Origin: Halichondria panicea
Taxonomy: Eukaryota > Porifera > Demospongiae > Suberitida > Halichondriidae
Reading direction: 5' to 3'
Length of the DNA: 64,000 nt
Assembly: GCF_963675165.1 (NCBI RefSeq)
Contig: NC_087377.1
Coordinates: 11,766,632 to 11,830,631 of the forward strand
The notes below the pieces were generated by a model that saw nothing but the letters and a program-made list of their open reading frames with translations, was not told the origin of the DNA and ran no database searches. Positions 24,950-64,000 of this stretch are shown here, piece by piece (positions within the stretch are counted from its first letter, which is position 1; each line of letters begins with the position of its first letter). The translations under genes were made by a program, and so were the position numbers.

Positions 24950-26554
24950 ATGAAGCTCTTTAAAGTTATCCTGACTTGCTTTCTGGCTGGCTTCAGCACT
25001 GGTAAGAAAAATGTTATTATAGGTTTCCATACATTAACACTTTTCATAAAGCCCAATATTTAGTGAGTGTTGAGAGACCATGTCCAATAGAAACAGTCAC
25101 TTTTACCTGCACTGCTGTTGGAGATTCTTTGAGATGGGTACTGTCAGATGTTACTGACATCGATATCCTCTCCACCTTGGATCTCAATGTACCACAAATG
25201 CGATCAGGTTACACTGTGACACTGATTGCAGCCAATGACACCACATTAACATCTACTCTGTCAAGAACAGCAGAGAATGGGATCACTGTGTCCTGTGTGG
25301 ACCCGCCTACAACAACTATAGGATCTTCAATGATCCAATTGGTTGGTGAGTTGCAATAAGTGCCTCGTCCGTTATCTCGCAATAAGTTACATAGATATGC
25401 CAGGATCACCTTCCACCATAAGACACTCCACTCTGAGCAGCTCAGCCAATAAAGTCAATGTATCTGTACAGTGGGACCCACCTACTGAAACTGGTGGTAG
25501 AGATGACCTCACCTACACAGTGACCGTCTCACCTCCGACCCAGCTCTCTGCTACCATCCTCACATCCACCTCTGTCACTGTGACTGCTCAATACAATGTA
25601 GACTCCACTGTCAGTGTTGTGGCTACCAACTGTGCTGGGAACAGTACGACTGCTGAGTACAGTTTTAGGATTGGTGAGTTTTGACAGCATCATAATTATT
25701 GAGAATCAACACACATGCACTCACAGTCATATTTCCAATTCTCTCTCAGGTGGCTGTCCTGTGTTGACAAACCCCACAAATGGAACATTTGGACCAGTTT
25801 CCAGCAGATTGCCAGGATCTATAGTAACCATCCAGTGTGATGCTGGGTATGTAACGATGGTGACATGTGACGGTACACTATTGTGGAGTCCGAACTCTGA
25901 AACTATTCTGTGTGGTCAACTAACCCAACATATTCCAACAACTTGTGAGTTTAAGAATCTGCTAGTATAATTATGTATACACATGCTTTTTTCACGGAAT
26001 ATGTAACTAATACGTACAGCTCTTCTAATGCCGAGATGCACAGCACAACTGTACCCACCACAGAACGGTACCATCATCAGTAATCATTCAGTACCAGCTA
26101 TTCCCGGTACACAAGTCACCTTTCAGTGTGATAATGGACTGTTCCCTGAGAGGATAATGACTGCCACCTGTCTGGCTACAGGAGAGTGGGATAAAAACCC
26201 GGGAGAGATCGTCTGTACAGGCAAGTGTATTCATATTTATACCTGTACTGTAATTATACTTGGAACCACCTATATACAGCTCAATCCCCAACTCTATTCA
26301 CTGGTGCTGATATTGGTATTGCTGTTTCCGTTAGCGTGATTGTCACAGCAGCTCTGTTCACGATCATTGGATTCCTCATTGGACTCCTAGTGATGTACCT
26401 TCGCTGTCGTAAGAAGACAGTGTTCTCCCCGGTAGCAGAAGGAAAAACTAACGTAAGACCCACTACACCAGTTGGTCCTGTTTATGAAGAGGTGTCACCC
26501 AAAGAGGAGATTGAACTAAACATTAACCAGGCGTATGGACCAGTAGGACTGTAA
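24950..26554 (+). CDS. type 1 receptor: signal peptide, Ig, FN3, CCP, CCP, TM, tyrosine tail
   Basis: Six exons give 427 aa: 24950-25001, 25064-25345, 25395-25673, 25750-25944, 26020-26220, 26280-26554. All internal junctions are phase 1. The protein starts MKLFKVILTCFLAGFS (secretion signal), then an Ig-like domain (VTFTC...ITVSC), an FN3 domain (VSVQWDPPTETGG, NCAGNST) and two four-cysteine CCP modules (GCPVLTNPTNGTFG; RCTAQLYPPQNGT). A 20-odd residue membrane span is followed by RCRKK and a tail with PVYEEVS and QAYGPVGL. CCP1 is three residues shorter than in the paralogs. The last intron uses a GC donor (GCAAGT). The start was chosen because it opens the hydrophobic leader shared by the family. 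It is likely a surface recognition receptor signalling through tyrosine phosphorylation; the ligand is unknown. Confidence 0.85.
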
Positions 26555-26689
26555 AACTTATTTACTCTTTTGGTATCCAGCATCCCACAAGTGAAATCAT
26601 TACATTATCAGGCCTTTCCTTTTTCTTTTTGACCTATAGCTAGACTTTGCGTGCATATAATTATAACCTCTACTTGTTTTGGTTGACTT

Positions 26690-27350
26690 CAACACTCTAT
26701 ATGCTCAGTCTGGCGGTGTGCCTGTCAGCTAGCTATGTCTTTAGTTACTATCCGTCCCCAACACCTCTCTCCAAGTCACCATGCAGTCCCTGTGGAGACT
26801 ATACCTCGGCAGTCGGCACAGATAACCATCTCCTAGTTACAACACTCTCTAGAGTATGACTATATTATATCAGAGCTTACAACGGTGTTGGAATGATGAA
26901 GCAATTTTGGATATGAGTAAGCTAGCCATTAATTGCATGGTCTCCACTAAATATTTTAATGTCAATAATTTATATGCCAAGTATGTGATGGACCCCACCC
27001 AAGTTGCTACACACACCACTCTTGAGTTGTCTATTTTTACAACATACAGTCGTGCATTGCACTCCTCTTCTTTATAATGCTGTTGTGTGCCTCACACCAT
27101 CTACTGCCGATGTTACCATCTCCATACATTACTCCTGTACGATGCTATATCTACTAATGGATCCAAGGTCACTTTCACTTGCAGTGGAGACATGAATTAA
27201 GTAGTAGTAGTGAGTACTCCCCCCTCTGACCTTATTCACTTTATCTATTGTATAGTGTATAGGTGGCAGGTGCTGCTACTTTTGGACCTATAGCTGGAAC
27301 TTTTGTTGGCAGCCTGTTTGTGGTGACACTGATGTCATAGAGTTCATAGT
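26690..27350 (+). pseudogene. type 2 receptor relic (FN3, CCP, TM pieces)
   Basis: Nucleotide-level similarity to the type 2 receptor at 30113 is seen in order: an FN3-like stretch at 26708-26900 (GTGCCTGTCAGCTATGTC, ACACCTCTCTCCAAGTCACC), a CCP-like stretch at 27080-27195 (CACACCATCTACTGC, TGGATCCAAGGTCACTTTCA) and a hydrophobic stretch at 27262-27336. Frames are broken throughout. It lies just behind the gene at 24950, so type 1 and type 2 units alternate. Confidence 0.65.
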
Positions 27351-27422
27351 TTTTGCTAGTAGCTATTTATCACACACACAAAAAAGTGAGCGACTGTACA
27401 ATATAATTGGCCATGGATAACC

Positions 27423-27469
27423 TAGCCTCGAATCCAGGCCGATTATAATCGGCCTGGTCTCGAGGCTAT
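27423..27469. repeat. short palindromic hairpin element
   Basis: TAGCCTCGAATCCAGGCC and GGCCTGGTCTCGAGGCTA surround GATTATAATC. It belongs to the same family as 16975 and 35148. Confidence 0.8.
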
Positions 27470-28348: not shown

Positions 28349-29153
28349 ATGGTGAACTTCTTGGTGACAAAGGAGAAAGCAATGCTGAGAGACACTGATG
28401 TCCATTTTCTTTTTACACAATTCAATTCTACACAATTCAATTCAGATCAAGTATCTTCTGTTAATAGCATTTATGATTAACTCTCAGACAACGATGGTCA
28501 CATGACCCCACCACATATGACTGTCCCTCAGGTAATGTGCATGTAATATCACTATATCACAACATCACTAGTCCTCCCCTTCCATGATTCCTAAGTATTC
28601 AGTAGCCGATTAGTAAATGCTCGTGCATGTGCAGCTGATTGATATGGTACTTCCTGCATGGCCTTCCATATATTATAGTGCACTGCTCTCTTCCTCCTGA
28701 GCTGTGCAATGGTGCTATAGTGGACTATGATAGGTTGAACGAGACAGTGGTGGAGGGAACATTGCTGACTTACCAGTGTGACAATGGACTCTCACTGACT
28801 GGACCCAACACCATTACTTGCACTAATGCTGGAGTCTGGAGCACTGAGCCTGAGGCAATCAAGTGTGTACTTAGGATTGAAGGTACAAGGAGTTATTTAT
28901 TCCATAATGCATAATTATACTATCTATTTCACAGGTTCTACAGTCGCTATATCCTATCTACTGATGAAGCTATCGCTATAAGTGTTGTCATAACTTTCAT
29001 TGTTGCTGCCATTCTTGGATTCCTCACTGGACTCCTAGTGATGCACTTGTGCTCTCGTAAGAAGGCAGTATACTCTCCAGCAACTGAAGGACAAGCTAAC
29101 GTAGGACTCAACAATACAAGCACATGCAGGACCTGCCATACACTTTATTAATA
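28349..29153 (+). pseudogene. type 2 receptor remnant with truncated tail
   Basis: ATGGTGAACTTCTTG at 28349 matches the leader exon at 60731, but about 85 bp of unrelated sequence interrupts it before ATCAAGTATCTTCTG at 28446. There is no Ig or FN3 exon. One CCP exon is intact (28679-28882, NGLSLTGPNTITC). The next exon is out of frame with it at the usual acceptor; only a weak alternative AG near 28968 would restore the membrane segment (VITFIVAAILGFLTGLLVM). The tail is cut after GQANVGLN and stops at 29151-29153, so both tyrosine motifs are lost. Confidence 0.75.
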
Positions 29154-29189
29154 GCTTTATCTCTCATAATCCAAAAATTAAATCACCCA

Positions 29190-30112: not shown

Positions 30113-32693
30113 ATGAAAATACAAGCAGTTATTATCATCATTCAGTTGTTTACTCTTGCTGCAGGTAAGTAAGGTGTTCACTGGAACCTTCACTAGAAAT
30201 ATTTATAGCCTAAAAGATAGATCAATCATTATTATTTGTTCAGCCACTTTGACATCCACCCCCACTGTGGCCTGTCCTGATGACACTGTTGCCTTCACCT
30301 GTACTCTGCCTGGTACTATGGGTGTAACCATTGGCTGGACAGTAACTCCACCAACAGGACTAAATGTGGCCAGTGCATCTGGAGCAGTTAGTAACAGTTT
30401 GGTAATGAATATCATTGGCTCTGATGGGTTCCTGTTCCGGGCTGATTACTCTGGATATTCAATGGAGGCATGGTAACATCTACCCTTACCACTCTCACCA
30501 TGGTGACAGCGCTGGCTGGAGCTATGGTAGACTGTAGAGTAATAGGAGGAGTAGGGGAAGATCAAATACCCATCAGCGTGGCTGGTGAGTAAATAATCTT
30601 GATTAAGGCCTGTGTTAGTTGTAAAAACGTGTTTCTGGTCAAAAACTTATCAATAGTATGAGGGAGGGAGGTTCTCATTTCCATTATATTCCATTATTGA
30701 TGATGTCATAAAATACAAATTCCTGTTGCTAAAAATCAAATGTTAGAGACTGTGGATGGACACTAGTTATCTTTCAAGGAAGAAGACTTTGCTTTATAGT
30801 GTTGCAGAACACTGTAAAGTTGATGACGGATACTCATACTAGCTAGCCATGAACTGAGATCCAAAATCAGTAGATTGCTAATTGCTTCCTTTTTGGGTGG
30901 AGTTTTTTGATGACGTCATTAAATAATGGCTGACATCAGCAATAATGGTCATTTTAAGCGGGCACTAAATGAGTATGCGGGAGGCTGACCAGAAACACAT
31001 TTGTAACTAACACAGGCTGAATACAAAATTGTCAGAACAAAACTAATGCTAACGGGGGGGGGGGTATTTCTCAAAAACAGATCCATCTTCACTTCTACTG
31101 AACCCAAGTGTGACCTCCACTCAAAGCCAACCCAGTTCTTCTAATATCACTTTGGAGTGGGACTCCCCTTCATCTACTGGTGGTGTGTCTGTCAGCTATG
31201 TCGTCACTATCTCCCCAATACCTCTCTCCGGGTTACCAGTCACCATGGAAACCACCTCTGCACATATCATTGTCTCCTACAACACTCTCTACAATGTGAC
31301 AATCAGAGCTGTCAACTGTGCTGGAATGAGTCAAGAAGCTTCAATTGAGGATCTGAGTAAGCTATTTCGTGGTTGTACATAGAGCACACAGAACTCCTTC
31401 TCGCACAGTGGTGTGTCCCACACCGTCTACTGCTGCTATGGTGACCATCACCAACACACCTCCTGTCACTATTGGTGGATCCATGCTCACCTTCACATGT
31501 AGTGGAGACAATGAAGTGAGAACCTCAACCTGTGGCAGTAGTGGGTGGTCTCCTGACCCTGAGACCTTTGACAGCAGCAGTCTGATTACAAGTGTGTTAA
31601 TTGTATTATCTATAATATTATTATGGCTGACCTCATTAGATCCCCAAGTCGCTTGTGGTTCTCCTGCCGCACCGTCCAGAGGTAGTGTGGACATCATTAG
31701 TGGGACACCACCCTTCTCACTGGGTTTACAGGTCATCTATCGCTGTGACGAGGGACTGTTCCCCCCTGATGTGAGGACCAGCACATGCACTGATGTGGAG
31801 GGTAGGGGAGAGTGGGTGAAGAATCCTGGGAGCTTGGTGTGCAGGGAGAGGCCAGGTGAAATGTTAGTTGGGAAAATGTTTAGGCTTCCCAAACCACACT
31901 GGTAAGTGTGATAACAAATAAGCCTCTAGAGTGGGTGGTTGTGGTTTTTTTTAGAGTTTCACAAAAGACCCGCTTGCATCCGTGAAGCATGTAATTAAGT
32001 TGGCTTGGCCTTGCAATATTTTCTTTAAAAAGGTCATTCTATAATTTCTGCGATGTACAATATATTGTATTAGCTTAATACGGACACCAGTAGGTTATTG
32101 GATGCTCGTGTTGAGCTGATTGAGATACAAACATGTACTCATAGTCATTTTCTGACCGTCCATATAGTCAACTGCACCGTACCTGCTGAGCCGTGCAATG
32201 GTGCTATAGTGGACTATGAGAGGTTGAATGAGACAGTGTTGGAGGAAACACTGCTGACTTACCAGTGTGACAATGGACTCTCACTGACTGGACCCAACAC
32301 CATCACTTGCACTAATACTGGAGTCTGGAGCACTGAGCCAGAGGAAATCAAGTGTGTACTTATGACTGAAGGTGATGAGCTTTGTAATTGTTTGCTATCT
32401 ATATATATACTATCCCATCTCACAGTTTCTACTGCCGCTCCTTTGTTCTCCACTTCTGCAACAGTCGCTATCAGTGTGGTTATCACTTTCATTGTGACTC
32501 TAGTCATTGGATCCTCACTGGACTCCTAGTGATGCACCTTTGCTCTCGTAAGAAGGCAGTGTACTCCCCATCAGCTGAAGAGCAAGCTAACGTAAGACCC
32601 ACTGTACCAGTTGGTCCTGTTTATGAGGAGGTGTCACCCAAAGAGGAGATTGAACTCAACACTAACCAGGCGTATGGACCATTAGGACTGTGA
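30113..32693 (+). pseudogene. type 2 receptor with two frameshifts
   Basis: The exons are 30113-30164 (leader MKIQAVIIIIQLFTLAAG), 30244-30584 (Ig), 31081-31356 (FN3), 31409-31591, 31640-31855 and 32168-32371 (three CCP-like), and 32426-32693 (TM and tail). The Ig exon is 341 nt, not a multiple of three, and its frame changes near 30440-30470. The last exon lacks one base in the membrane segment near 32508, giving VIGSSLDS and a stop instead of the hydrophobic run and the YEEV/YGPL tail, which is intact in the next frame. The first CCP-like exon of the trio has also lost the cysteine after TFD. Recently inactivated, secreted-form, or base-call errors are all possible. Confidence 0.75.
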
Positions 32694-35702: not shown

Positions 35703-37313
35703 ATGACAATAATAGAAATAATAAAGCTCATTAGAGTTCTCCTGATTTGCTTTCTGGCTCGCTTCAGCACTGGTGAGACTGACAATTCAATTATAGATTT
35801 CCTTACATTTAACACTGCATGTTTCATAAAGCCCAATATTCAGTGAGTGTGGAGAGACCATGTCCAATGGAAACAGTCACTTTCATCTGCACTGCTCCTG
35901 GAGATTCCTTGAGATGGGTACTATCAGATGCAACTCCCATCACTATCCTCTCTTCTCCCTCTGGTCTCAATGTACCCCATGCTGTGTCAGGTTACACTGT
36001 GACACTGATTGCATTCAATGACACTACTTTAACGTCTACTCTGTCAAGAGCAGCAGATAATGGGATCACTGTGCCCTGTTTAGCTACTGTGCCTACTCTG
36101 ACCACTCACTATAGGATCTTCAATGATTCGACTGGTTAGTGAGTTGCAGTTAGTGTCTCGTCTATTGTGTGTATACACTAGTTACATAGATCTATCAGGA
36201 CCACCGTCCACCATCAGATACTTCATTCTGAGCAATTCAGCCAATGAAGTTAGTGTATCTGTACAGTGGGACTCTCCTACTGAGACTGGTGGTAGAAATG
36301 ACCTCACCTACACAGTAACCGTCTCACCTCCGGCCCAGCTCTCTGTACTGTCCTCACATCTACCTCTGTTACTGTGACTGCTCAATACTATATGTAGACT
36401 ATAATGTCAGTGTTATGGCTACCAACTGTGCTGGGAACAGTACGACTGCTGAGTACAACTTTAGGATCGGTGAGTTTTATTTTTGACACACAGTGTCAAC
36501 TCCTCCTCAGGCAACTGTCCTATGTTGACCAACCCCATGAATAGAGCATTTGGACCAACCACCAGCAGTTTGCCAGGATCCACAGTAACCATCCAGTGTG
36601 ATGCTGGATATGTGTCTGCTGTTACAATGGTGACATGTGAGGGTACACTGATGTGGAGTCCAGACCCTGAGGCTATTGAGTGCACATCACTAACTACACC
36701 TACTCCTACAACTCGTGAGTTAAGCTCTTGCTGTATGCAATATTTATTCTGTGATAACACAGTCCCCCCTCAAATGAGGTGCACAGCTTCACTACCCCCA
36801 CCACGGAATGGCACCATCAGTGATCATTCAGTACCAGCTATTCCCGGTACACAAGTGACCTTCCAGTGTGACGATGCACTGCTCCCTGAGGGCATAATGA
36901 CTGTCACCTGTCTAGCTACAGGAGAGTGGGACAGGAACACGGGGGAGATTGTCTGCAGAGACAAGTGTATTCGAATACACTTGTAATCATACTTCTCTCC
37001 TGAACCACCTACAGCTGTTCTTTGTAATTACGCCAGCCTATCTGATGGGAGTCGATTTGATGCAGCTGTCTCCATCAGCGTGGTTGTCACGGCAGTTGTG
37101 TTCACCATCATTGGATTATTGATGGGACTCTTGATCATGTATTTGCTCATGCGTAAGAAGGCAGTGTACTCCCCGTCAGCTGAAGGTCAAGCTAATGTAG
37201 GACCCACTGTACCAGCTGGTCCTGTTTATGAAGAGGTGTTACCCAAAGAGGAGATTGAACTGAACACTAACCAGGCTTATGGACCATTAGCAATTTCATC
37301 AACAGTTAATTAA
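35703..37313 (+). pseudogene. type 1 receptor with multiple frameshifts
   Basis: The exon order is normal: 35703-35772, 35844-36134 or nearby, 36190-36469, 36511-36714, 36763-36960, 37015-37313. The Ig exon has four extra bases near 36107, and its last base before the donor is changed. The FN3 exon has lost a base near 36344 and gained two near 36390, giving stops. The GCAAGT donor after CCP2 is mutated to ACAAGT, so translation of that exon would run into CIRIHL and stop. The tail keeps VYEEV and AYGPL but its normal end is replaced (AISSTVN) by a small deletion. CCP exons are intact. It is non-functional as a full receptor. Confidence 0.85.
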
Positions 37314-37690: not shown

Positions 37691-37887
37691 TACTAGTATA
37701 TATGCATGCGCAATCTCTCTACATGGCTTCTATAGAAACCGTGATAAAAGCAAGCATAAGTAAAAGCTGTAAACGCTATGTCAAACCTTCAAAGAAACTC
37801 CCCACACAATCTTAACATGCACAACAAACCAGCCCCTCCCACTCTCTATATATGTAGTACACGATTACCACCTAATAATATAGTAGT

Positions 37888-38290
37888 ATGGTGATGTCGG
37901 TGTGTACACTGTATGGTGATGTTGGTGTGTGTACACTGTATGGTGATGTTGGTGTGTACATTGTATGGTGATGTTGGTGTATATACTCTGTATGGTGATG
38001 TTGGTGTGTGTACACTGTATGGTGATGTTAGTGTGTGTACACTGTATGGTGATGTCGGTGTGTACACTGTATGGTGATGTCGGTGTGTGTACACTGTATG
38101 GTGATGTCGGTGTGTGTACACTGTATGGTGATGTTGGTGTGTGTACACTGTATATGGTGATGTTGGTGTGTGTACACTGTATGTGGTGATGTTGGTGTGT
38201 GTACACTGTATGGTGATGTTGGTGTGTGTACACTGTATGGTGATATTGGTGTGTGTACACTGCGGTACAGTGATGTTGGTGTGTGTACAC
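37888..38290. repeat. 27-bp minisatellite, about 14 copies
   Basis: The unit is approximately GTATGGTGATGTTGGTGTGTGTACACT. Copies vary by T/C in GATGT(T/C)GG and by TG-dinucleotide length. Both strands are open in several frames because the unit length is often a multiple of three, so the 150-residue frames here are artefacts. A single unit remnant is at 48655-48692, in the corresponding flank of the 48.9 kb gene. Confidence 0.95.
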
Positions 38291-38690: not shown

Positions 38691-41496
38691 ATGACACTAA
38701 TAGAGATAATAAAGCTCATTGGAGTTCTCCTGATTTGTTTTCTGGCTGGCTTCAGCACTGGTAAGACTGACTATTCAATTATAGATTTCCTTACATTGCT
38801 GCATGTTTCATAAAGCACAATATTCAGTGAGTGTGGAGAGACCATGTCCAATGGAAACAGTCATTTTCACCTGCACTGCTCCTGGAGATTTCTTGAGATG
38901 GGTACCATCAGATGTTTCTGCTCCAATCACTATCCTCTCTACTGCTGATCTCAATGTACCACAAGAAACGCAGCCAGGTTACACTTTGACACTGATTGCA
39001 TTCAGTAGCACTACATTAACATCTACTCTGTCAAGAATAGCAGAGAATGGGATCACAGTGTCCTGTGTGGGGTTTGATCCTACTTTAAATACTATAGGAT
39101 CTGCAACAATCCAATTAGTTGGTGAGTTGCAGTTAGTGTCTCGGCCATAATTGTAAATGTTACGTAATTATAGAACCACCAGGACCACCTTCCAGCAAAA
39201 GACACTCGATTCTGAGGATCTCAGCCAATGCAGTCAATGTATCTGTACAGTGGAACCCTCCTACTGAGACTGGTGGTAGAGATGACCTCACCTACACAGT
39301 GACCATCTCACCTCCGGCCCAGCTCTCCGCTGTTGTCCTCACATCCACCTCTGTCACTGTGACTGCTCAATACAATGTGGACTACACTGTCAGTGTTGTG
39401 GCTACCAACTGTGCTGGGAACAGTACAGCAGCTGCCTACAATTTTAGAATCGGTTAGTCGAGTCGGACGTATATATAGTCTTTAAACAGCATACTATTAA
39501 AAAACACTGACTCCCTCTTGTGCAGGTGGCTGTCCTGTGTTGAATGGAGCGTTTGGACCAACCACCAGCAGATTGCCAGGATCTACAGCAACCATCCAGT
39601 GTGACGCTGGGTATGTGTCTGCTGTTACAATGGTGACATGTGAGGATACACTGATGTGGAGTCCAAACCCCGATATTGAGTGTACATTGCAAACCACACC
39701 TTCTCCTATACCGTGTAAGTTTTGTTTGCATGTGCATGTAGATGAAATTTAATTTTTGATCTTCTATAGTCCCTCCGATGAACTGCACAGCTCCTCTATC
39801 CCTACCAAGGAATGGCACCATCAGTGATCATTCCATACCAGCTATTCCCGGTACACAAGTGACCTTCCAGTGTGACAATGGACTATTCCCTGAGGCCATA
39901 ATGAATGTCACTTGTCTAGCTACAGGAGAGTGGGACAAGATCCCAGGGGAGATCGTCTGCAGAAATGAGTCTAGTAAGTTTCCTGATTTATGGTTTAGTG
40001 TACTCAATTTATTGAGCTCAAAGTCGAATTACTAAAAATTCAAATGAGCGTATAAATATTTCATTTTTACATCAATCATATTCCTTGTACTCAGTTTCGT
40101 GTGTCCTGCCTGCCCCTCCACTCAATGGAGCTTTACTCAACACCACGTCTCAGAATACTAACCTAATAGAGGGCTCAGTTATTACCTTCCAATGTGATCC
40201 TGGGTTCTCACTGGTGGGTGCAACGACTGCCACTTGTAACAACTCTGGTCTCTGGGATCCTGACCTGGCTCTGTTGGAGTGTTGTACGTACGCATATGAG
40301 TAGTCATAAACTAGCTGGTACAACGATATACCGTAAATGCGCGAAAATTTCAAGGCATGCACTTACAAATATACCAGAAACACTCCCAGGCCACGCCTTC
40401 AATCTTTGCACGTTATAGCAAATAAATTAGCAAAAATTAAGCCCCTTGAAAATTTGGCACTGTACTGTATAGCTCAAAGTACATTTATATACAGTATAGA
40501 CTCTCGCTATTCTGGCTCTCTGAAGTACGGCCACCTCGATATACCGGCCATTTAGTTTGGCACAGATTGCACAAAACTCACCCTGAAACGCGGCCACTTG
40601 CTATATTCCGTATACTGGCTGCCCCTCACTAGGTTTTAATGTACGTTTATTACGGCCGGATATGATGTTTTGGGTGTGGTTTGGCAGATAAAATTGGATT
40701 ACACTTAAATATAAGAGCAGAATGATTCACTATCTTCATTATCCTCGAGACAGACCCGCAAAATTAGTCATTAGATTCGAGGTAAGGTTGTTTTTAAGCT
40801 GCAGCTATTTTCTGAAATACAGCCACCTCGCTATTCCGGCCAATCTGCACTGTCCCAAGGGTGACCGGATTAACGAGAGTCTACTGCATAGCATTAACGA
40901 TTTTTGATATTTACGGCACTTAATATTAAATTGATATGATAGAGAGGTTAATCTTTTGTTCGGAGGTTATATTAGTGAGTAGTAAACTTCAGAGACGGAA
41001 AAAAAACACTGACTTCTCAGAAAAATTGACGAAAATTAAATTTGACTCTTGAAAATTAACATGTTCATACAAAACTGACATAAATACCTCATACAACACA
41101 GTACTCTGATTGTGATAATTGCCTATAATTATCAATTAGTGCTCTATTTGTTGTCCTAAGAATTATTGCCAATCCTTCACAGCTCTGACTGCTACCACCC
41201 TATCAACTGTTGTAACTGTTGCCATCGGTGTTACTACTACTTTCATTGTGTCTACTCTATTTCTCGCTGGACTCCTAGTGATGTACTTGTTTATGCGTAA
41301 GAAGGCAGTGTACTTCACAAGAAAAATAGCATTATCTGTTGTAGAACCCACTAAACCAGTTGGTCCTGTTTATGAGGAGGTGTTACCCAAAAAGGATATT
41401 GAACTGAACACTAACCAGGCGTACAGACCAGTAGGACCACCCAAAGAGGATATTGAACTACATACTAACCAGGCGTATGGACCATTAGGACTGTGA
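38691..41496 (+). CDS. type 1 receptor with three CCPs and a three-tyrosine tail
   Basis: Seven exons give 512 aa: 38691-38760, 38828-39121, 39174-39452, 39526-39714, 39770-39973, 40095-40283, 41183-41496, all phase 1. The leader is MTLIEIIKLIGVLLICFLAG, then Ig (VIFTC...ITVSC), FN3 (VSVQWNPPTETGG type) and three CCPs. The third (SCVLPAPPLNGALL, NNSGLWDPD) is found otherwise only in the minus-strand relic at 14960. The exon after CCP2 ends at a regular GTAAGT further downstream instead of the GC donor of its paralogs. The membrane exon differs from other type 1 copies and matches the one at 63927, including the intron end. The tail has PVYEEVLPKKD, then QAYRPVGPPKED and QAYGPLGL, an internal duplication. 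The last intron (about 900 bp) carries a TIR element. Confidence 0.85.
40490..40885. mobile_element. TIR element in an intron
   Basis: ACAGTATAGACTCTCGCTAT and the inverse ACGAGAGTCTACTG bracket a segment with GGCCACCTCG repeated at both sides. A similar GCGAGGGTCTACTGT end is at 47361-47374. It is noncoding and lies in the last intron of the gene at 38691-41496. Confidence 0.65.
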
Positions 41497-44263: not shown

Positions 44264-45865
44264 ATGACACTAATAGAGATAATAAAGCTCATTAGAGTTC
44301 TTCTGATTTGCTTTCTGGCTGGCTTCAGCACTGGTAAGACTGACTATTCAATTATTGATTTCCTTGCATTGACACTGCATGTTTCATAAAGCCCAATATT
44401 CAGTGAGTGTGGAGAGACCATGTCCAATGGAAACAGTCACTTTTACCTGCACTGCTATTGGAGATTCCTTGATATGGGACCTGCCTGGAAATCGTATCAC
44501 TGTCCTCACCACCTCTGATCCACTAGTAATGCAGTCAGGCTACACTGTGACACTGATTGCATTTGATAACGATACATTAACTTCTACTCTATCAAGAACA
44601 GCAGAGAATGGGATCACTGTGTCATGCTTGGAGATTGTGTCTACTCTAACCACTATAGGATCTTCAACAATCCGTTTGGTTGGTGAGGTCTTGTCCATTG
44701 TCCATTGTCTGTATGTGTAAAAAATGTATATATAGATCCACCAGGACCACCTTCTGCTGTAAGACATTTTATTTTGAGCAGCTCAGCCAATAAAGTCAGT
44801 GTATCTGTACAGTGGAACCCTACTACTGAGACTGGTGGTAGAGATGACCCCACTTACACAGTGACCATCTCACCTCCGGCCCAGCTCTCTGCTACTGTCT
44901 TCACATCCATCTCTGTCACTGTGACTGCTCAATACAATGTGGACTACACTGTCAGTGTTGTGGCTACCAATTGTGCTGGGAACAGTACAACTGCTGAGTA
45001 CAACTTTAGGATTGGTAAGTATTATTATTTTGACACACAAATTGTCAACTCCTTCTTAGGTAACTGTCCTGTGTTGACCAACCCTATTAATGGAGCCTTT
45101 GGACCAGTCTCCAACAGATTATCAGGATCCACAGTAACCATCCAGTGTGACGCTGGATATGTGTCTGCTGTTACGATGGTGACATGTGAGGGTACACTAA
45201 TGTGGAGTCCAGACCCTGAGGCTATTGAGTGTACATTACTAACCACATCTACTCCCACAACTCGTGAGTTAAGCTCTTGGTTGTAGGAAATAAATACAAA
45301 ATATCTATGTTAATCATTATACAGCTCCTCCAATAAACTGCACAGCTTCACTATCCTCACCAAGGAATGGCATTATCAGTGATCATTCAGTACCAGCTAT
45401 TCCCGGCACACAAGTTACCCTCCATTGTGACGATGAACTGTTCCCTGAGGGAATAATGACTGCTACCTGTCTAGCTACAGGAAAGTGGGACGAGGAGATC
45501 GTCTGCAGAGGCAAGTGTATTCATTACTTGAATACACTTGCTTGTAATAATACTTTTCTCTTAAACAACCTACAGCTGCTCCTTGTAATTGTGCCAGCCT
45601 ATCTGATGGGAGTCGATTTGATTCAGCTGTCTCCATCAGCGTGGTTGTCACGACAGTTGCGTTCACAATTATTGGATTGTTGATAGGACTCTTGATCATG
45701 TATTTGCTCATGCGTAAGAAGGCAGTGTACTCCCCGGCAGCTAAAGGACAAGCTAATTATAATGTAGGACCCACTGTACCAGCTGGTCCTGTTTATGAGG
45801 AGGTGTCACCTAAAGAGGAGATTGAACTGAATACTAACCAGGCGTATGGACCAGTAGGACTGTGA
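44264..45865 (+). CDS. type 1 receptor: signal peptide, Ig, FN3, CCP, CCP, TM, tyrosine tail
   Basis: Six exons give 435 aa: 44264-44333, 44404-44682, 44736-45014, 45060-45263, 45325-45510, 45576-45865. Junctions are all phase 1. The leader is MTLIEIIKLIRVLLICFLAG. The Ig domain has VTFTC and ITVSC. The FN3 domain has the usual VSVQWNPTTETGG. CCP1 is GCPV-like (NCPVLTNPINGAFG). CCP2 is shortened near its end (KWDEEIVC instead of EWDKNPGEIVC). The juxtamembrane PCNCASLSDG precedes a span of about 24 residues, MRKKAVYSP, then VYEEVSPKEE and QAYGPVGL. The last intron has a GC donor (GCAAGT at 45511). TATAAAGGAA is at 44191 and ATTAAA at 45928. This is the cleanest member of the array. Confidence 0.88.
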
Positions 45866-48871: not shown

Positions 48872-50940
48872 ATGACACTAATAGAGATAATAAAGCTCAT
48901 TAGAGTTCTTCTGATTTGCTTTCTGGCTGACTTCAGCACTGGTAAGACTGACTATTCAATTATAGATTTCCTTACATTGACACTGCATGTTTCATAATTT
49001 AAAAGCACAATATTCAGTGAGTGCATGTGGAGAGACCATGTCCAATGGAAACAGTCACTTTCACCTGCACCGCTGCTGGAGATTCCTTGAGATGGGAGCC
49101 ATCAGATGTTACTGTCATCACTATCATCTCTTCTCCCTCTGGTCTCAATGTACCCAATGTTGTATCAGGTTACACCGTAACACTGATTGCATTCAATGAC
49201 ACTACATTAACATCTACTCTGTCAAGAACAGCAGAGAATGGGATCACTGTGTCCTGTGTGGACCCACTGCCTATTTTAACCACTATAGGATCTTCAAGGA
49301 TCCGATTGGTTGGTGAGTTGCAGTTATAGCTATAGTGTATCGTCCATTGTCTGACTAAGTTACATATAGATCTACCAGGACCACCTTCCACCATCAGACA
49401 TTCCATTCTGAGCAGCTCATCCAATGAAGCTAGTGTATCTGTACAGTGGGACCCTCCTACTGAGACTGGTGGTAGAGATGACCTCACCTACACAGTGACC
49501 ATCTCACCTCCGGCCAAGCTCTCTGCTACTGTCCTCACATCCACCTCTGTTGCTGTGACTGCTCAATACAATGTGGACTACACTATCAGTGCTGTGGCTA
49601 CCAACTGTGCTGGGAACAGTACAACAGCTGGGTACAACTTTAGGATCGGTGAGTCAACATCGTCTTTAAACAGTACACTACACTGACTCCCTCTAGTGCA
49701 GGCAACTGTCCTTGTGTTGACCAACCCATGAATGGAGCGTTTGGACCAACCACCAGTAGTTTACCAGGATCCATAGTAACTATCCAGTGTGACGCTGGGT
49801 ATTTGTCTGCTGTTACGATGGTGACATGTGAAAGTACACTGATGTGGAGTCCAGACCCTGACGCTATTGAGTGTACAACACTAACCACACCTACTCCCAT
49901 AATTTGTGAGTTTAAGCTCTTGGCTATATATTTACCCCGTGTGTGTATGCGCAGCGAGCAGCAGGGGTGGAGGAGTGATTGGTGTGTGTGTGTCGGTTTG
50001 TGTGTGTGTGTGGACACAAAATGAGCTGTTTGAGCGAACTAGACACTTTCATAGGCTGCTTTAACTGCTCTACTTAAATATAGTTGAAACTTGTAGGCGA
50101 TCTTCGAAGGTGAAAAACTAATACGAAATATAAATGCCTCGAAAAATTCGCGCTATATGGTATATGATTGTGAATCTATAAAGCAACGATTAGATTGATT
50201 AGTTTTTCACCTTCGAAGATCGCCTACAAGTTTCAACTATATTTATTAAGTTATACGCTATACGGTATTCCCCTAATGATAAAGATGTTACGGTAAAAAG
50301 TTATTGTATCCATTTTGCTGCTGTGTGATGAAGCTCAACGCACAGGGTGAATGCTCTACTGAGCATCTTGTTATGGAAATAATACTTCCAACAGTATGTT
50401 AATTACACAGCTCCTCCAATGGACTGCACGGCTCCACTATCCCCACCAAGGAATGGCACCATCAGTGATCATTCAGTACCAGCTATTCCCGGTACACAAG
50501 TGACCTTTCAGTGTGATGATGGACTGTTCCCCGAGGGGATAATGACTGCCACCTGTCTAGCTACAGGAGAGTGGGACAAGAATCCAGGGGGAATTGTCTG
50601 CAGAGGCAAGTTTATTCATTACTTAAAGTAATCATGCTTCTATATTGAACCACCTACAGCTGTTTCTTACAATAGCAAATTATCTGATGGGAGTCGATTT
50701 GATGCAGCTGTCTCCATCAGTGTGGTTGTCACGGCAGTTCTATTCACAGTCATTGGCTTGTTGACGGGACTCTTGATAATGTATTTGTTCATGCATAAGA
50801 AGAATGTATACTCCCCGGAAACTGAAAAACAAGCTAATGTAGGACCCACTGTACCAGCTAGTCCTGTTTATGAGGAGGTGTCACCCAAAGAGGAGATTGA
50901 ACTGAACACTAACCAGACGTATGGACCAGTAGGACTGTGA
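48872..50940 (+). CDS. type 1 receptor with shifted acceptor and enlarged intron
   Basis: Six exons give 439 aa if the acceptor at 49020-49021 is used: 48872-48941, 49022-49312, 49370-49648, 49702-49905, 50411-50605, 50660-50940. At the normal acceptor (CAG at 49015-49017) four extra bases would shift the Ig frame, but an AG four bases later restores it, giving VHVERPCP instead of VSVERPCP. Ig, FN3, CCP1 (with two compensating indels making NCPCVDQPMNG, an extra cysteine), CCP2, TM and tail (VYEEVSPKEE, QTYGPVGL) then read through. The final intron has a GC donor (GCAAGT at 50606). The fourth intron is about 500 bp because it contains a copy of the family's 5' flank. It is probably functional, but this rests on the shifted acceptor. 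Confidence 0.72.
49945..50375. repeat. copy of receptor 5' flank inside an intron, with inverted repeat
   Basis: The segment repeats the order of 35240-35570: (GT)n, ACAAAATGAGCTGTTT, GTAGGCGATCTTCGAAGG, GTTATTGTATCC, AATGCTCTACTGAGCATCTTG. Inside, AACTTGTAGGCGATCTTCGA at 50087 is inverted at 50207-50226, forming arms of about 37 bp around a degenerate ACCGTATAGCG-type core. Confidence 0.75.
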
Positions 50941-53937: not shown

Positions 53938-55342
53938 ATGACACTAATAGAGATAATAAAGCTCATTAGAGTTCTTCTGATTTGCTTTCTGGCTGGCTTC
54001 AGCACTGGTAAGACTGACTATTCAATTATATATTTCCTTACATTGCTGCATTTTTCTCAAAGCCCAATATTCAGTAAGTGTGGAGAGACCATGTCCAATG
54101 GAAACAGTCACTTTCACCTGCACTGTTCCTGGAGATTCCTTGAGATGGGAACCGTCAAATTCTCGCACGATCGCTGTCCGCTCCACCTCTGGTCTCAATG
54201 TAGCCAATGTTGTATCAGGTTACACCGTGACACTGATTGCATTCAATGACACTACTTTAACGTCCACTCTGTCAAGAATAGCAGAGAATGGGATCACTGT
54301 GTCCTGTGTTGGGGTTGTGCCTACTCTAATCACTATAGGATCTTCAATGATCCGATTGGCTGGTGAGGAGCTGCAATAAGTTCCTCGTCTGTTATATCAA
54401 AATAAGTTACATAGATCCACCAGGACCACCGTCCACCATAAGACACTCCACTCTGAGCAGCTCAGCTGGTGAAGTTAGTGTATCTGTACAGTGGAACCCT
54501 CCTACTGAGACTGGTGGTAGAGATGACCTCACCTACACGGTGACCATCTCACCTCCGGCCCAGCTCTCTGCTACTGTCCTCACATCCACCTCTGTCACTG
54601 TGACTGCTCAATACAATGTGGACTACACTGTCAGCGTTGTGGCTACCAACTGTGCTGGGAGCAGTACAACAGCTGAGTACAACTTTACGATTGGTGAGTA
54701 TTATTGTTTAGGACACACAGTTTCAACTGATCTTCTCAGGAAACTGTCCTATGTTGACCAACCCCATGAACGGAGCCTTTGTACCAGTCTCCAGCAGATT
54801 ACCAGGATCCACGGTAACCATCCAGTGTGATGTTGGGTATGTGTCTGCTGTTACAATGGTGACATGTGAGAGTACACTGATGTGGAGTCCAGACCCTGAG
54901 GCTATTGAGTGTATATCACTAGCCACACCTACTCCCACAACTTGTGAGTTCAGCTCTTGGCTGCATATAGTTATGGATATTATTATTCTATTACACAGCC
55001 CCTCCAATAAACTGCATGGCTCCACTATCCCCACCACTTGAACCACCTACAGTTGCTCCTTGTAATTGTAATTGCGCCAGCCTATCTGATGGGAGTCAAT
55101 TTGATGCAGCTGTCTCCACCAGTGTGGTTGTCACGGCAATTCTATTCACGATAATAGGATTATTTGTGGGACTCTTGATAATGTATTTGTTCATGCATAA
55201 GAAGAATGTGTACTCCCCGTCAGCTAAAGAGCAAGCTAACGTAGGACCCACTGCACCAGCTGGTCCTGTTTATGAAGAGGTATCACCCAAAGAGGAGATT
55301 GAACTGAACACTAACCAGGCGTATGGACCAGTAGGACTGTGA
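53938..55342 (+). CDS. type 1 receptor lacking CCP2 through an in-frame exon fusion
   Basis: Five exons give 394 aa: 53938-54007, 54075-54362, 54415-54693, 54740-54943, 54999-55342. Leader, Ig (VTFTC...ITVSC), FN3 and CCP1 are normal. The last exon starts as a CCP2 exon (SPPINCMAPLSPP) but jumps directly into LEPPTVAPCNCNCASLSDG, which is the former intron end plus the membrane exon. A deletion has removed most of CCP2, the GC donor and most of the intron, leaving an open frame. The TM, HKKNVYSPS and tail (VYEEVSPKEE, QAYGPVGL) are intact. TATAAAG is at 53854 and ATTAAA at 55451. It would encode a one-CCP receptor. Confidence 0.82.
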
Positions 55343-55492
55343 AACTTATGGTAATTTCCATCTTCAGTCAATGTACATGTACAATTAATATAGCACTGCA
55401 TCCGTTCATTATCAACAATTTTAAGAACAACATAAACAATAACGTTGTTCATTAAAAAGCCACTACACATGTTTTGTATGAAGTTATATAAC

Positions 55493-57520: not shown

Positions 57521-59417
57521 AGGCTTCTCTGGTGTCCAACAGCAGTGTTGCATGTCCTAGAGAGGCAGTTCTGTTCACATGCTCTGTGCCTGGTGATATG
57601 TCTAGTGTACTGAGATGGCAAGTCGATCCTCCAGCAGAGTCTGGGTTAATGACTATGCAAAGTACACTCTTCCTTGGTTCTCTAGTCGGTCGAAGGGACA
57701 CATTTGGATTTGGAGTGATCATGTTTGAGGCTGTTCTTGTGAGCAGTGACGGAGTAAACCTGACTTCTACTCTCATCAACCTCAGTAAAGTGTCTGTACT
57801 GGATGGAAGCATTGTCACCTGTACTGTTGTCAATTCAGATGCTACTAGAGTTGTTGAACTAAAGAAGACAATAATTATTGGTTGCTGGTGAGGAGCTATC
57901 TTTACTAATCTAGCACATGCAGTCTCTTATTGATGTCACACACAGGTAATCCAACCTCTCCACTAAACCCAAGAATATCCTCCACTCTAAATCAATCCAG
58001 TTCCTCTAATATCAATCTGGACTGGGAGGCTCCCTCCTCTACTGGTGGTGTGTCTATCAGGTATGTCCTCATCATCTCCCCAACATCTCTCTCTGGGTCA
58101 CCAGTAACCGTGGAGACCACCACAGTACAGATAACCATCTCCTACAACACACCCTACAATGTGACCATCAGAGCTGTCAACTGTGTTGGAATGAGTGAAA
58201 CTAGAATTGTGAATCTGGGTAAGTTAATAAGAATTTATACATTGTTTACATTCCTTCTCTGTAATACAGTGGTGTGTCCCACACCGTCTACTTCTGCTGG
58301 TGTGACCATCACCAACACACCTCCTGTCACTATTGGTGGATCCATGCTCACTTTCACTTGTAGTGAAGACAATGAAGTGAGAACCTCAACCTGTGGCAGT
58401 AGCGGGTGGTCTCCTGACCCTGGGACCTTTGACTGTGGCATCCCACAGCCAGTTACAGGTATCATACATGCATGCATGGGCAATTAACTCTCTAAAAGGA
58501 ATGTTTATCTCATGCATTAGATCCCCAAGTCAGCTGTGGTTCTCTTGCTGCACCGTCTAGAGGTAGTGTGGACGTCAGTGGTGGGAAAACCACCCTTCTC
58601 ACTGGGTTCACTGGTTAGCTATCGTTGTGACGAGGGACTATTCCCCCCTGATGTGAGGACCAGCACATGCACTGATGTGGGGGGTAGGGGAGAGTGGGTG
58701 GACAATCCTGGGAGCTTGAGGTGTAGGGAGAGGCCAGGTAAAACGTAGCTGTTTAGAGGCAATTTTTTGATTTCCTTTGAAAAATTTCATCTATAGACGT
58801 GCAATTGTATTAGTTTACGTACACCGCCTTTGTTCCACATTTCTAAGTATTCAATGGCAGGCTGTTGAGTGCTCGTAGTACAAACATATCATTTTCTGAT
58901 CGTCCATATAGTCAACTGCTCTCTTCCTGCTGAGCCCTGCAACGGTGCTGTAGTGGACTATGAGAGGTTGAACGACACAGTGTTGGAGGGAACAGTGCTG
59001 ACTTACCAGTGTGACAATGGACTCTCACTGACTGGACCCAACACCATCACTTGCACTAATACTAGAGTCTGGAGCACTGAGCCTGAAACAATCATGTGTG
59101 TGCCTAGGACTGAAGGTCAGTAATTGTTTGCTATTCCAAAAATACATGCAGTCATACTATCCCCTCTCACAGTTTCTACTGTCGCTATCAGTGTGGTCAT
59201 CACTTTCATTGTCACTCTAGTCATTGGATTCCTCACTGGACTCCTAGTGATGCATGTTTTCTCTCGTAAGAAGGCAGTATACTTCCCGGCAACTGAAGGA
59301 CAAGCTAACGTAGGACCCACTGCACTAGTTGGTCCTGTTTATGAGGAGGTACCAGTATCACCCAAAGAGGAGATTGAACTGAACACAAACCAGGCGTATG
59401 GACCGTTAGGACTGTAA
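57521..59417 (+). pseudogene. type 2 receptor, 5' truncated and frameshifted, intact tail
   Basis: The exons are 57521-57880 (Ig; VACPREAVLFTC, SIVTCTVV), 57946-58218 (FN3), 58270-58458, 58521-58737 and 58912-59115 (CCPs), and 59173-59417 (TM and tail). No leader exon precedes it. The Ig exon reaches the phase needed only with a weak GTTGCT donor; the family donor is one base out of frame. The second CCP exon has an extra base near 58588 (AAAA run). The last exon is complete: VITFIVTLVIGFLTGLLVM, SRKKAVYFP, VYEEVPVSPKEE (two residues longer between tyrosines) and QAYGPLGL. It is likely inactive, though single-base errors in the source sequence could mimic this. Confidence 0.7.
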
Positions 59418-60730: not shown

Positions 60731-61177
60731 ATGGTGAACTTGTTGATCAAGCATCTTCTGTTAGCAGTGATGATTGGCTCTCAGATAGGAGGTATGAATG
60801 CAAAACAAGATATATTGTGTTTCATGTGTGATTGAAGCTGTTCTACTACAGAGGCCTTCATTAGCGTCCAACACGAGTGTGGCGTGTCCTGCATGGAGAT
60901 GCAGTTCTGCTCACATGCTCTAAGCCTGCCCTGCATTGATATGGCAAGTGGATCCTCCAGCGATGTCTGGGTTGATGTCAGTTCAAAGTACATTCTTTAT
61001 TGGTTCTCAAGTTGGTCGAAGGAGGGACACATTAGAATCAGGAGTGATCATGAGGCTGTTCTTGTAAGCAATGATGGTGGAACTCTGACGTCCACCCTAA
61101 TCAACCTCAGTGAAGTGTCTGTACTGGAAGGAACCAATAATTTTATTACCTGTACTACTACCAATATATTTATATAG
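60731..61177 (+). pseudogene. type 2 receptor fragment: leader plus broken Ig exon
   Basis: The leader exon 60731-60791 is intact (MVNLLIKHLLLAVMIGSQIG, ending in phase 1). The following exon from 60852 aligns with the Ig exon at 57521 but is frame-shifted within the first 50 bases and again later, and ends at a stop at 61175. No FN3, CCP or TM follows before the next leader exon at 61339. This is a truncated duplicate. Confidence 0.75.
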
Positions 61178-61338
61178 ATCTAGTTGTGTATAATTATGGT
61201 TGACTTCTTTAATTATACTCAACATTCTGATGTGGTTTTTCTGACTTCCTCAATAGAGGGTGTGTTAATTCAATCATAGGTGATCAATAAACTTAATTGT
61301 TGTTGTTGTACCAGCTAGTTATGTATATAGCTCCTGTA

Positions 61339-64000
61339 ATGCAAGTACAGGCAGTTATTATCAGCATCCAGCTGTTTATTCTTGCTGCAGGTAAGTTATA
61401 CTATAGATCATCATCTATGTGTTCACTGGAACACACAATTTGTTTCAGCCACACTGATATCCACTTCCCCTGTGGCCTGTCCTGGTGACACTGTCACTTT
61501 AACCTGCACTATGCCTGGTAGTCTCATACGATGGGACGTCACTCCACCACAACAAGCTACGTTCAGCATAACTTTAAGAACCAACGACAACATTAACACT
61601 GATGAAACACGAGGTACTCCAGCATTCCGTGGTGTTCTCACTGACTCCAGTGGACCCCTCACTGCCACTCTCACTTCACTGTCTGAGGCCTCCATTGTAG
61701 AAGGTACTATGGTGGAGTGTGTCGGAGTGAGCTCACGAGAGGGTCCTCTCACCATCACTGTGGCTGGTGAGTTCTTTGTTCGGAACATAACATTGTGCAT
61801 GGAACAAGTATAATTAATGCACCCACAGATCCATCCTCCCCTCCACTCAACCCAATAGTGTCCTCCATTCTAAACCAACCCAGCTCCTCTAATATCACTC
61901 TGGACTGGGACCCTCCCTCCTATACTGGTGGTGTGTCTATCAGGTATGTCCTCATCATCTCCCCAACATCTCTCTCCGGGTCACCAGTCACCGTGGAGAC
62001 CACCTCCACACAGATCACTGTTTCCTACAACACATCCTATGCAGTGACCATCAGAGCTGTCAACTGTGCTGGAATGATCTGAGTCAAGAAAGTCAAATTG
62101 TGTATCTCAATTTTAGTAAGCTATAGCTATTTCATGGTTTTATACGTACAGATACACGCATTGAATACATAATTATATGTACAGTATTCTCTAAAAGGAA
62201 TGTTGATCTCATGCATTAGATCCCCCAGTCATCTGTAGTTCTCCTGTTTCACCGTCTAGAGGTAGTGTGGACATCATGGTGGGACACCACCCTTCTCACT
62301 GGGTTCACAGGTCACCTATCGCTGTGACGAGGGTCTGTTCCCCCCTGATGTGAGGACCAGCACATGCACTGGTGTGGAGGGTAGGGGAGAGTGGGTGGAG
62401 AATCCTGGGAGCTTGGTGTGCAGGGAGACACCAGGTATAATTATAGTCTACATTAATTTTTCTGCTGTGTATATAGCTATATTACAGTCAACGTACTACA
62501 CTGTACCTGCCGTATACCATCCAATACTACTACTATAGTACCAAGTGTGTCACAACGGTGCTATAGCTATATACAGTATAATTTTAGTATAATTGTCTTG
62601 TATACGTTGCATTTCACGTACCACAGTCAACTGCTCTCTACCCTCGGAGCCATCCAACGGAACTATAGTGAACTATGAGAGGTTGAATGAGACGGTGTTG
62701 GAGGGAACAGTGCTGACTGACTTACCAGTGTGACAATGGACTCTCACTGATAGGACTCTACACCATCACTTGCACTAATGTTGGAGTCTGGAGCACTAAG
62801 CCTGAGGCAATCACGTGTGTGTCACCAACTGAAGGTGAGGGTAATTAACCGATTAACCCGAGGCACATAGGCAACCATGGGAGTTGCGGTAATCCCTAGG
62901 TTTGTTTGTCTGTGTTTTAAGTCTGCTCACCTGGTTGCCATAGCGCCTTCGTTCACAGTACGGATAGCCTCAACGCAACAAGTTATAATTATTGGCATGC
63001 ATGTTGTGATCTTGATTGAAAGCAAGCAAGAAGGTGTACGATATGTAGCTAAACGTGGCTTTAATTTGAGGCACGCCATTACACAAGTCGTACATGATTG
63101 TGTATATGCAGCCATGTACGTGGAGCCTTATTTATCACGGGAAGACTTCTTTACTGGCTCTAGATCTACTGTGAGCCTATACTCCGGTCCCACTGCATGT
63201 CAGGTGTCCTATATATACATGTACTAGCTTGTAACACTCTAGGCTTCGATTTTTGCTATAGCTGTGATCCTAACGGTCCGGGACTCCCATTGTATTTTCA
63301 GGGTTTATTTCAGTGTGCTAGTCTTAGCGGGTGATATTTCACCTGCTTAAAATGTTCTGTCACCCATTTGGAGCATATATGTAAATTGTGTACCTATAAA
63401 TCACCCCTCAATTGCAATTAAATTTCATACTTAGTAACTTGTAACAACAATGTGCATTATCCCTAACAATGTGTTTGCTTAGTCACAATCAGTAACCACA
63501 ATGATGTCACATCATGTAGCTGGTACATTGTATATCCGAGTAATCATTGTGAATTTCTCCTTTGGCGGCCAGCTACTCAGGAGTCAGGAGTCAGGGGGCT
63601 AATGCCCCCGGCCCATGTTTTGTCCCTGAAATTTGACTAGGGAAGTTGGCACCTATGCAAATGGCTCATCTGCCAAATATTTATTCTAGTTAAACGTTAA
63701 TTATTTTATACGAGTGAGGATCAATAATTATCAAAACCTAAATTAGATCTAGTACTGGTAATTATCCTTGCTAGAACGCAATAGTTAGATCGTATGAGGT
63801 CAATTTTTCTGCTGATTTGGTTCAAAATATTCTAGTAACAGTACAACACAGTGTATACTCTGGGTGTGGTATACAACTGCCTCAGGCTTCTATCTCAATA
63901 TTAATTTTATTGCCAATCCTCCACAGCTGCCACCCTATCAACTGGTGTAACTCTTGCCATCAGTGTTACTACTACTTTCGTTGCGTCTACTATCCTTGGA
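61339..64000 (+). pseudogene. type 2 receptor with several lesions, runs off the window
   Basis: The leader 61339-61390 (MQVQAVIISIQLFILAAG) and Ig exon 61449-61766 (VACPGDTVTLTC, MVECVGV) are intact. The FN3 exon from 61829 has five extra bases near 62072, giving a stop. The VVCPTPST-type CCP exon is absent. The next CCP exon (62220-62435) has lost a base near 62278. The last CCP exon (from about 62631) has GACT duplicated near 62716. The membrane exon starts at 63927 (ATLSTGVTLAISVTTTFVAS) and continues beyond 64000. The 1.1-kb intron before it holds an open frame with no domain similarity (62877-63227). Confidence 0.78.

Follow-up and report, generated by a model that had tools for sequence, protein, structure and literature searches.

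The 64,000-nucleotide window analysed here (Halichondria panicea, NC_087377.1, positions 11,766,632 to 11,830,631) carries a tandem array of genes for membrane receptors with an outermost immunoglobulin (Ig)-like domain, a fibronectin type III (FN3) domain, one to three CCP (Sushi) modules, a transmembrane (TM) segment and a cytoplasmic tail with conserved tyrosines. We propose, with a probability of about 0.6, that the array belongs to a 3.7-Mb supercluster of modular paired immune or allorecognition receptors bearing two or more kinds of cytoplasmic tail. This proposal is carried by the architecture of the units, their clustering, the conservation of the tail, the fast-changing Ig domain and the presence of two tail classes.

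The genome was searched as a single 131.5-Mb assembly of 39 contigs, in which the window lies on contig C1 (18.14 Mb). A 57-residue tail query returned 288 candidates, and all 150 that were scored matched, every one of them within C1:11,249,301-14,927,713; these scored matches span 3.7 Mb at a median spacing of 8.05 kb, and 148 of the 150 tails are free of stop codons. The type A Ig query gave 126 matches among 150 scored of 195 candidates, with 125 on C1 at 10.42-14.93 Mb, and the leader query gave 59 matches among 71 candidates, all on C1. The tail and Ig counts are lower bounds, given that 150 were scored of 288 and of 195 candidates, respectively. The 3.7-Mb cluster holds well over a hundred similar receptor genes, of which the window is a small piece. 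A reading of the window from its letters alone, hereafter the sequence-only reading, had described clustered, copy-variable receptors with a conserved tyrosine tail; the genome-wide tail matches on one contig agree with that description. The sole Ig match away from C1 among those scored, at C32:2554-2844, is perhaps an alternative haplotype of the cluster.

Within the window, tblastn of the domain exons recovered 11 units or fragments on the plus strand between 24.95 and 62.8 kb, where at least ten units in 39 kb had been anticipated: six units of ectodomain type A, three of type B (30.1-32.7, 57.5-59.4 and 61.3-62.8 kb) and two fragments. The order of domains in receptor units is Ig-FN3-CCP(1-3)-TM. 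A leader with a GT donor precedes all six type A units, with starts at 24950, 35703, 38691, 44264, 48872 and 53938, as well as units B1 and B4. Five units (A1, A3, A4, A5 and A6) each splice into a single open protein of about 380-516 residues, matching the five readable units of the sequence-only reading; A2 and B1 are frameshifted, and B4 is without a tail inside the window. The claim that the units share one tail stands for YEEV, which occurs eight times, in the eight window units with a tail, but not for the C-terminal end, where the motif is duplicated in A3, reads TYGPVGL in A5 and gives way to a different C-terminus in A2, a probable pseudogene. The features are listed below by window position.

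24950-26554, plus strand: unit A1, open (tblastn, leader and spliced model); exons: leader 24950-25001, Ig 25052-25345, FN3 25395-25673, CCP1 25750-25944, CCP2 26020-26220, TM and tail 26280-26554
28679-29103, plus strand: fragment B0, a CCP3-like exon and a truncated TM/tail (CCP and TM at 28.7-29.1 kb)
30113-32693, plus strand: unit B1; leader, type B Ig and FN3, three CCPs, TM and tail; frame broken in Ig and TM
35703-37313, plus strand: unit A2; leader, Ig, FN3 (frameshift), CCP1, CCP2, TM and tail with altered C-terminus
38691-41496, plus strand: unit A3; leader, Ig, FN3, CCP1-CCP3, TM and tail with the NQAY motif duplicated; open
44264-45865, plus strand: unit A4; leader, Ig, FN3, CCP1, CCP2, TM and tail; open
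48872-50940, plus strand: unit A5; leader, Ig (5' splice acceptor ambiguous), FN3, CCP1, CCP2, TM and tail (TYGPVGL); open
53938-55342, plus strand: unit A6; leader, Ig, FN3, CCP1, TM and tail; CCP2 lost; open
57521-59417, plus strand: unit B2; type B Ig and FN3, CCP1-3, TM and tail; no defect flagged; leader not found, Ig donor weak
60858-61165, plus strand: lone broken type B Ig fragment (tblastn)
61339-62834, plus strand: unit B4; leader, type B Ig and FN3, CCP2, CCP3 (broken); tail not found in the window

Other elements of the window lie between, inside or away from these units. They comprise a 27-bp minisatellite of about 15 copies between A2 and A3 (37886-38290), an inverted repeat that by eye resembles a miniature inverted-repeat transposable element in the CCP1-CCP2 intron of A5 (50080-50250), and a minus-strand CCP2/CCP3 exon relic with a stop codon, away from the array (14978-15322). 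A pair of open stretches at 16050-17398, whose ends resemble splice sites and which faintly recall Ig/FN3, was considered as receptor relatives and left out, Pfam giving no Ig or fn3 match. Searches of the window for RNA families and tRNAs found none.

Gene models were built for 88 members, namely eight window units and 80 further loci (L numbers below); B4 was excluded for want of a tail. Sixty-two models carry no flagged defect, counting partial ones (L076, L079-L081) and those whose stretch contains no leader, and 32 run complete from leader to stop. When 102 of the 126 Ig places were paired with tails (split fragments and the C32 place being left out), 70 of the 102 had a scored tail within 6 kb. 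Outside the window, 60 of 62 Ig-plus-tail units (type B among them) were read, as were 20 of the 81 tail places without a paired Ig; additionally, we read eight type A Ig units without a scored tail, five peptidase places and four Death-domain places.

Class I, the majority class and that of the window, comprises predicted single-pass surface receptors with a tail of about 45 residues and two tyrosine sites, YEEV and NQAYGP. Both tyrosines are kept in 86 of 86 in-frame copies (the other two of the 88 are frameshifted). Of the 88 tails, 84 have YEEV and 86 have YEE[VIML], the second tyrosine stands in an NxxY context in 86 of 88, and the spacing of the two motifs is 13 in 78 of 88 when [LIV] is allowed. 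Phosphorylated YEE(I/V) is the favoured site of Src-family SH2 domains, and NxxY is a PTB and endocytosis signal; the genome has 71 matches to SH2 domains in general. The YxxL/V pair had also been likened to a long-spaced immunoreceptor tyrosine-based activation motif (ITAM). This likeness fails for class I, as the strict pattern Yxx[L/I]-x6-12-Yxx[L/I] occurs in 0 of 88 tails; the inhibitory counterpart (ITIM), [S/I/V/L]xYxx[I/V/L], was likewise rejected, occurring in only 7 of 88. Because two Yxx[LIV] motifs also arise in 6.9% of shuffles of the class I tail composition, the significance of this tail lies in its conservation, not in the motif. No relative of the tail was confirmed in prokaryote genome contigs or viral contigs. 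At C2:7250187-7256049, three neighbouring SH2 matches with long open frames (406-417 residues) are possibly tandem SH2 kinase-like genes.

Comparison of close type A pairs separated conserved from fast-changing parts of the receptors. In windows running from PVYEEV to the C-terminus, the ratio of nonsynonymous to synonymous proportions of differences (pN/pS) was 0.15, 0.12, 0.04 and 0.25, whereas the membrane-proximal part of that tail gave 0.83-1.68, and this contrast within one tail serves as a partial control for having sampled loci by tail similarity. The tail array is above chance, forming a many-copy genome family with a constrained core. The middle of the Ig domain gave pN/pS values of 0.75-1.17, and the pooled pN/pS of the Ig domain was the highest of all parts in both types (0.65 in A, 0.68 in B). 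Median nonsynonymous divergence (dN) was likewise higher in Ig than in the other ectodomain domains, at 0.177 versus 0.096-0.117 in type A and 0.474 versus 0.078-0.137 in type B. The Ig domain thus shows fast, weakly constrained change.

Between types A and B, the ectodomains are far apart (Ig: median pS 0.70, identity 0.28; FN3: median pS 0.66, identity 0.31), whereas the tails are nearly alike, with pS 0.23 (0.19-0.20 within types) and identity 0.78 over the whole tail, and pS 0.28 and identity 0.92 from YEEV to the end. The class I tail is also found on a third ectodomain type, C (L080, L082). Since A and B tails are near-alike while their Ig and FN3 domains are far apart, and type C bears the same tail, one signalling exon appears to have spread beneath several ectodomains or to have been homogenised there by conversion. 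Exon exchange is classically associated with domain exons in phase 1. The gene-model scripts sought phase-1 sites only, but a separate test that allowed all phases found that, around near full-length domain matches, phase 1 scored best at 207 donors and 206 acceptors, of 261 each, with a clear preference at Ig donors (59 of 61) and FN3 donors (54 of 59).

A second tail class was found outside the window, among the eight type A Ig units without a nearby scored tail. One of these, L097, has the short class I tail farther off, and the remaining seven carry a different TM exon. In five of the seven (L093, L094, L096, L098 and L099), and also in L103, there follow short exons (phase 0 as read in L094) with motifs of the kinds YNRI/YSRI, TYDEV, GYSVM, GYGQL, VVYAVL and TYATV, except that the GYSVM exon was not found in L099 and that L096 has YNGV in place of YDEV. 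Two further exons jointly form a Death domain (PF00531). Against the Pfam cut-off of 22.6 bits, the joined exons of L094 and L099 scored 28.3 bits, L102 scored 26.4 and single exons of L104 scored 30.4 and 25.5; a phmmer search for this domain against the PDB gave nothing at E<=0.1. The Death exon has 23 genome matches, all 23 on C1 and inside the cluster (11.41-14.51 Mb), two of them with a stop, and the class II-related loci (L093, L094, L096, L098, L099 and L102-L104) lie at C1:12.5-14.4 Mb. Because L104 pairs a type C ectodomain with two Death domains, type A and type C ectodomains each occur with either kind of tail. A mixed form is seen in L100 (1779-2120 oriented, C1:14.71 Mb), in which the second TM type precedes a diverged tail exon reading PAGPVYEEV...SNEAYGQV; in L095, nothing further was found after the second TM type.

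Class II tails have as many as six YxxΦ motifs, among them hemITAM-like, ITIM-like and YxxM types and one ITAM-spaced pair. All six tails read match the ITAM pattern (YGQL-x10-YAVL type), a match that spans, and depends on, one predicted exon joint; all six have three ITIM matches each, four have the hemITAM-like pattern DE[DE]GYxx[LIV], and five have six Yxx[LIVM] motifs, L099 having five. Of shuffles of the L094 tail, 1.4% had an ITAM match, 0.4% had three ITIM matches and 0.015% had six Yxx[LIVM]. The ITAM idea does not describe the class I tails of the window; ITAM-, ITIM- and hemITAM-like motifs are found in class II, outside it. YxxM recruits PI3-kinase, ITIM-type sites recruit SH2 phosphatases, and Death domains assemble caspase or NF-kB complexes. 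In quick trees, made without a shuffle test, the ectodomains of units with the second TM type did not group together (label changes: Ig, 6 for 6 units; FN3, 4 for 4; CCP2, 5 for 5), although so few scattered labels also fit chance placement and one of the six units in these trees (L095) is without a Death exon found.

As regards the identity of the extracellular domains, Sushi was clear by Pfam in three models (E 5.6e-10, 4.4e-19 and 9.6e-10). At E<=0.1, the fn3 profile matched 69 of 70 exons (2.2e-8 at best), with three type A models under the curated cut-off and one type B exon over it; the predicted structure (predicted local distance difference test, pLDDT, 83.5) found an FN3 domain as its best PDB fold match (E 4.4e-4). 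Profile and model together support FN3 as the identity of the second domain. The outermost domain has a nearly invariant C-W-C pattern across 71 exons, and a profile of these exons matched mostly antibody chains in the PDB library, which is antibody-rich (best E 0.018). We regard it as probably Ig-like, not proven. Of the domains named in the sequence-only reading, Sushi is thus secure in the spliced models, FN3 falls under the cut-off in type A but is upheld by the whole set of exons and the fold, and Ig remains weak in Pfam.

Several findings weigh against the receptor-supercluster proposal or parts of it. Ig_2 matches only 4 of the 71 outermost-domain exons at E<=0.1, with PKD and adh_short matching three each, the AlphaFold model of this domain from the seven window copies has a pLDDT of 58.5, and a fold search with that model gave no match. 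The type C Ig and FN3 exons are without an Ig or fn3 Pfam match, although Sushi was found in type C. In type A, median dN is as high in the transmembrane segment (0.184) as in Ig. Positive selection in the Ig domain was considered but is not claimed, since pN/pS there lies close to 1 without a clear excess, and individual windows in FN3, CCP1 and CCP2 likewise rise to 1.0-1.9. A preference for phase 1 is missing at Ig acceptors (27 of 61) and at CCP3 donors (13 of 33). Furthermore, 26 of the 88 models are flagged with a defect, the choice of loci by tail or Ig similarity over-samples conserved members, and the near-identical, far-apart copies described next may include assembly duplication.

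Five copy pairs are 99.86-100% identical at distances of 0.23-1.43 Mb on C1. Among the window units, A1 has a 99.94% identical duplicate in L046 (C1:13.218 Mb), A2 a 99.94% identical one in L047, and A4 an identical copy over 1667 bases in L026 (C1:12.045 Mb). Such distant copies reflect either segmental duplication of very recent date or redundancy in the assembly. On C1, array blocks are repeated at offsets of about 0.23, 0.57, 0.72 and 1.43 Mb (99.86-100% identity), and equal scores alone suggest a further offset of 1.95 Mb. Inside the cluster, L076 contains from 2109 on (C1:12.25 Mb) a 357-residue open frame that looks multi-pass membrane-like by eye. Elsewhere, a peptidase exon in the genome reads CGASYAFS, with serine where cysteine peptidases have cysteine; in the PDB it matches silicatein alpha best (6zq3, E 2.1e-12), with cathepsin S behind at 3e-10. 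Silicateins are known from siliceous sponges, so the exon points to a demosponge genome.

The near-identical pairs, together with the flagged models and the fragments in the window, are what a runaway tandem repeat would leave behind, in which the copies are mostly dead or redundant, few are functional and the number is inflated by assembly duplication. We consider this most improbable, given the 62 of 88 models without a flagged defect, the 148 stop-free tails among 150 scored (of 288 candidates) and the low pN/pS of the tail core. An ordinary family of clustered proteins for cell adhesion or gamete recognition, carrying an NxxY tail for endocytosis or PTB binding and amplified with no recognition role, would account for the NxxY site in 86 of 88 class I tails, and Ig-FN3-CCP ectodomains are common in adhesion proteins. 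This too is unlikely, although less so, as it sits poorly with the size of the cluster, with Ig as the fastest-changing part of the ectodomain and with a sister class that combines tyrosine motifs with a Death domain.

Microbe sensing is harder to set aside and is a serious contender, although we do not favour it. Under this explanation, the cluster encodes pattern-recognition receptors whose ectodomain attaches to the surfaces of bacteria or to soluble effectors, and symbionts and pathogens rather than allorecognition drove the expansion. The genomic picture fits it equally well, and nothing in this analysis counts against it. Among the genes of other sponges that respond to signals from microbes are some with Ig, Sushi, FN3 or Death domains (PMC6208332), and in Halichondria most receptor genes are expressed in an individual-specific manner (PMC8242945). 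As possible targets, self, foreign sponge cells and microbes look the same from sequence. The cluster may be regarded as a strong candidate for a sponge system of self/non-self recognition or microbe sensing.

If the cluster does encode paired receptors for immunity or allorecognition, touching another cell or a microbe would cluster them via the Ig-like domain, and this ligand-driven clustering would lead to tyrosine phosphorylation. YEEV, when phosphorylated, would be suited to Src-type SH2 domains, and NQAYGP, as an NxxY site, to PTB domains or endocytosis. Class I may act as the common activating or tuning arm, recruiting tyrosine-kinase signalling, and class II may integrate the same signal and couple it to Death-domain complexes, with rejection, apoptosis or an NF-kB-type output. 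Diversity would be generated by tandem and segmental duplication and by exchange of mostly phase-1 exons, which could keep one signalling cassette below many ectodomains. A bolder version, which we put forward only tentatively and consider rather doubtful, is that the cluster is the long-missing sponge allorecognition complex, with paired receptors on a chromosome scale exchanging a shared tyrosine cassette and a tyrosine-plus-Death tail among Ig-FN3-CCP ectodomains that diversify rapidly. Were this true, balanced phosphotyrosine signals would settle the choice of tolerance or programmed rejection in an animal that has neither blood nor nerves nor organs.

The receptor system is real, large and apparently undescribed; size, phylum, cassette sharing and the Death-domain class make it unusual. 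Clustered variable Ig/CCP receptors with ITAM/ITIM-like tails at a sponge locus would carry the logic of Botryllus and Hydractinia over to an early animal branch, and the Death-domain version would link recognition directly to a cell-death pathway. With exons and tails named, grafting genetics and SH2/PTB binding become directly testable.

Among the papers listed in searches of the open-access literature, by titles and abstract starts and with most subscription journals uncovered, none concerned an Ig-FN3-CCP family bearing tyrosine or Death-domain tails. Vertebrate paired receptors (KIR, PIR, CEACAM) have like ectodomains on alternative tails in one cluster, an arrangement also seen in the sponge cluster, for which no homology is claimed; to our knowledge, the KIR, PIR and CEACAM tails are without a Death domain. 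Aggregation factors are secreted. These and an Ig-bearing receptor tyrosine kinase of Geodia are earlier sponge self/non-self candidates (PMC5450542, PMC12018476). The Geodia protein is itself a kinase, whereas no kinase domain was found when three class I models and one class II tail were scanned with Pfam. Hydractinia Alr proteins have Ig-like domains and are not known to have a CCP or Death domain, and their homophilic binding is known; the sponge units, in contrast, carry CCP. Alr nevertheless resembles the sponge cluster in grouping Ig-superfamily genes, probable ones in the sponge, with ITAM/ITIM-like tails, and ITAM/ITIM motifs are mentioned for it in PMC12065747. The Ig-TIR receptors of sponges have extracellular Ig and intracellular TIR and are reported to number one or two genes per species (PMC6208332, PMC8242945). 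The cluster has a probably Ig-like extracellular domain as well, but differs in FN3 and CCP, in its tyrosine tails, in the Death domain and in having well over a hundred copies; the same Pfam scan found no TIR at E<=1.

The nearest described design, on the available text of PMC12065747, is that of the Botryllus fester co-receptors (FcoR) of the fuhc locus. These are type I receptors with variable Ig and Sushi domains and ITIM, hemITAM and core Yxx(I/L/V) tails, known so far from 53 loci in the fuhc allorecognition locus of about 800 kb (PMC12065747). The sponge cluster likewise has variable Ig-like and Sushi membrane receptors with tyrosine tails. FcoR, however, have the order V-Ig, Sushi, two C2-Ig and TM, whereas the sponge order is Ig-FN3-CCP(1-3)-TM; FN3 and the Death domain, both present in the sponge cluster, go unmentioned for the tunicate FcoR in the available text (PMC12065747). 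Moreover, the FcoR locus has been tied to fusion by crosses (PMC12065747), while the sponge cluster is known from sequence alone. In a graft transcriptome of Amphimedon, adhesion, apoptosis and aggregation-factor genes were not significantly enriched, and the word "immunoglobulin" is absent from the text of that paper (PMC5450542). The proteins proposed for allorecognition in sponges, cnidarians and ascidians are described as not conserved, and ITIM/ITAM-type motifs as connecting the Botryllus and Hydractinia systems to mammalian signalling (PMC12065747).

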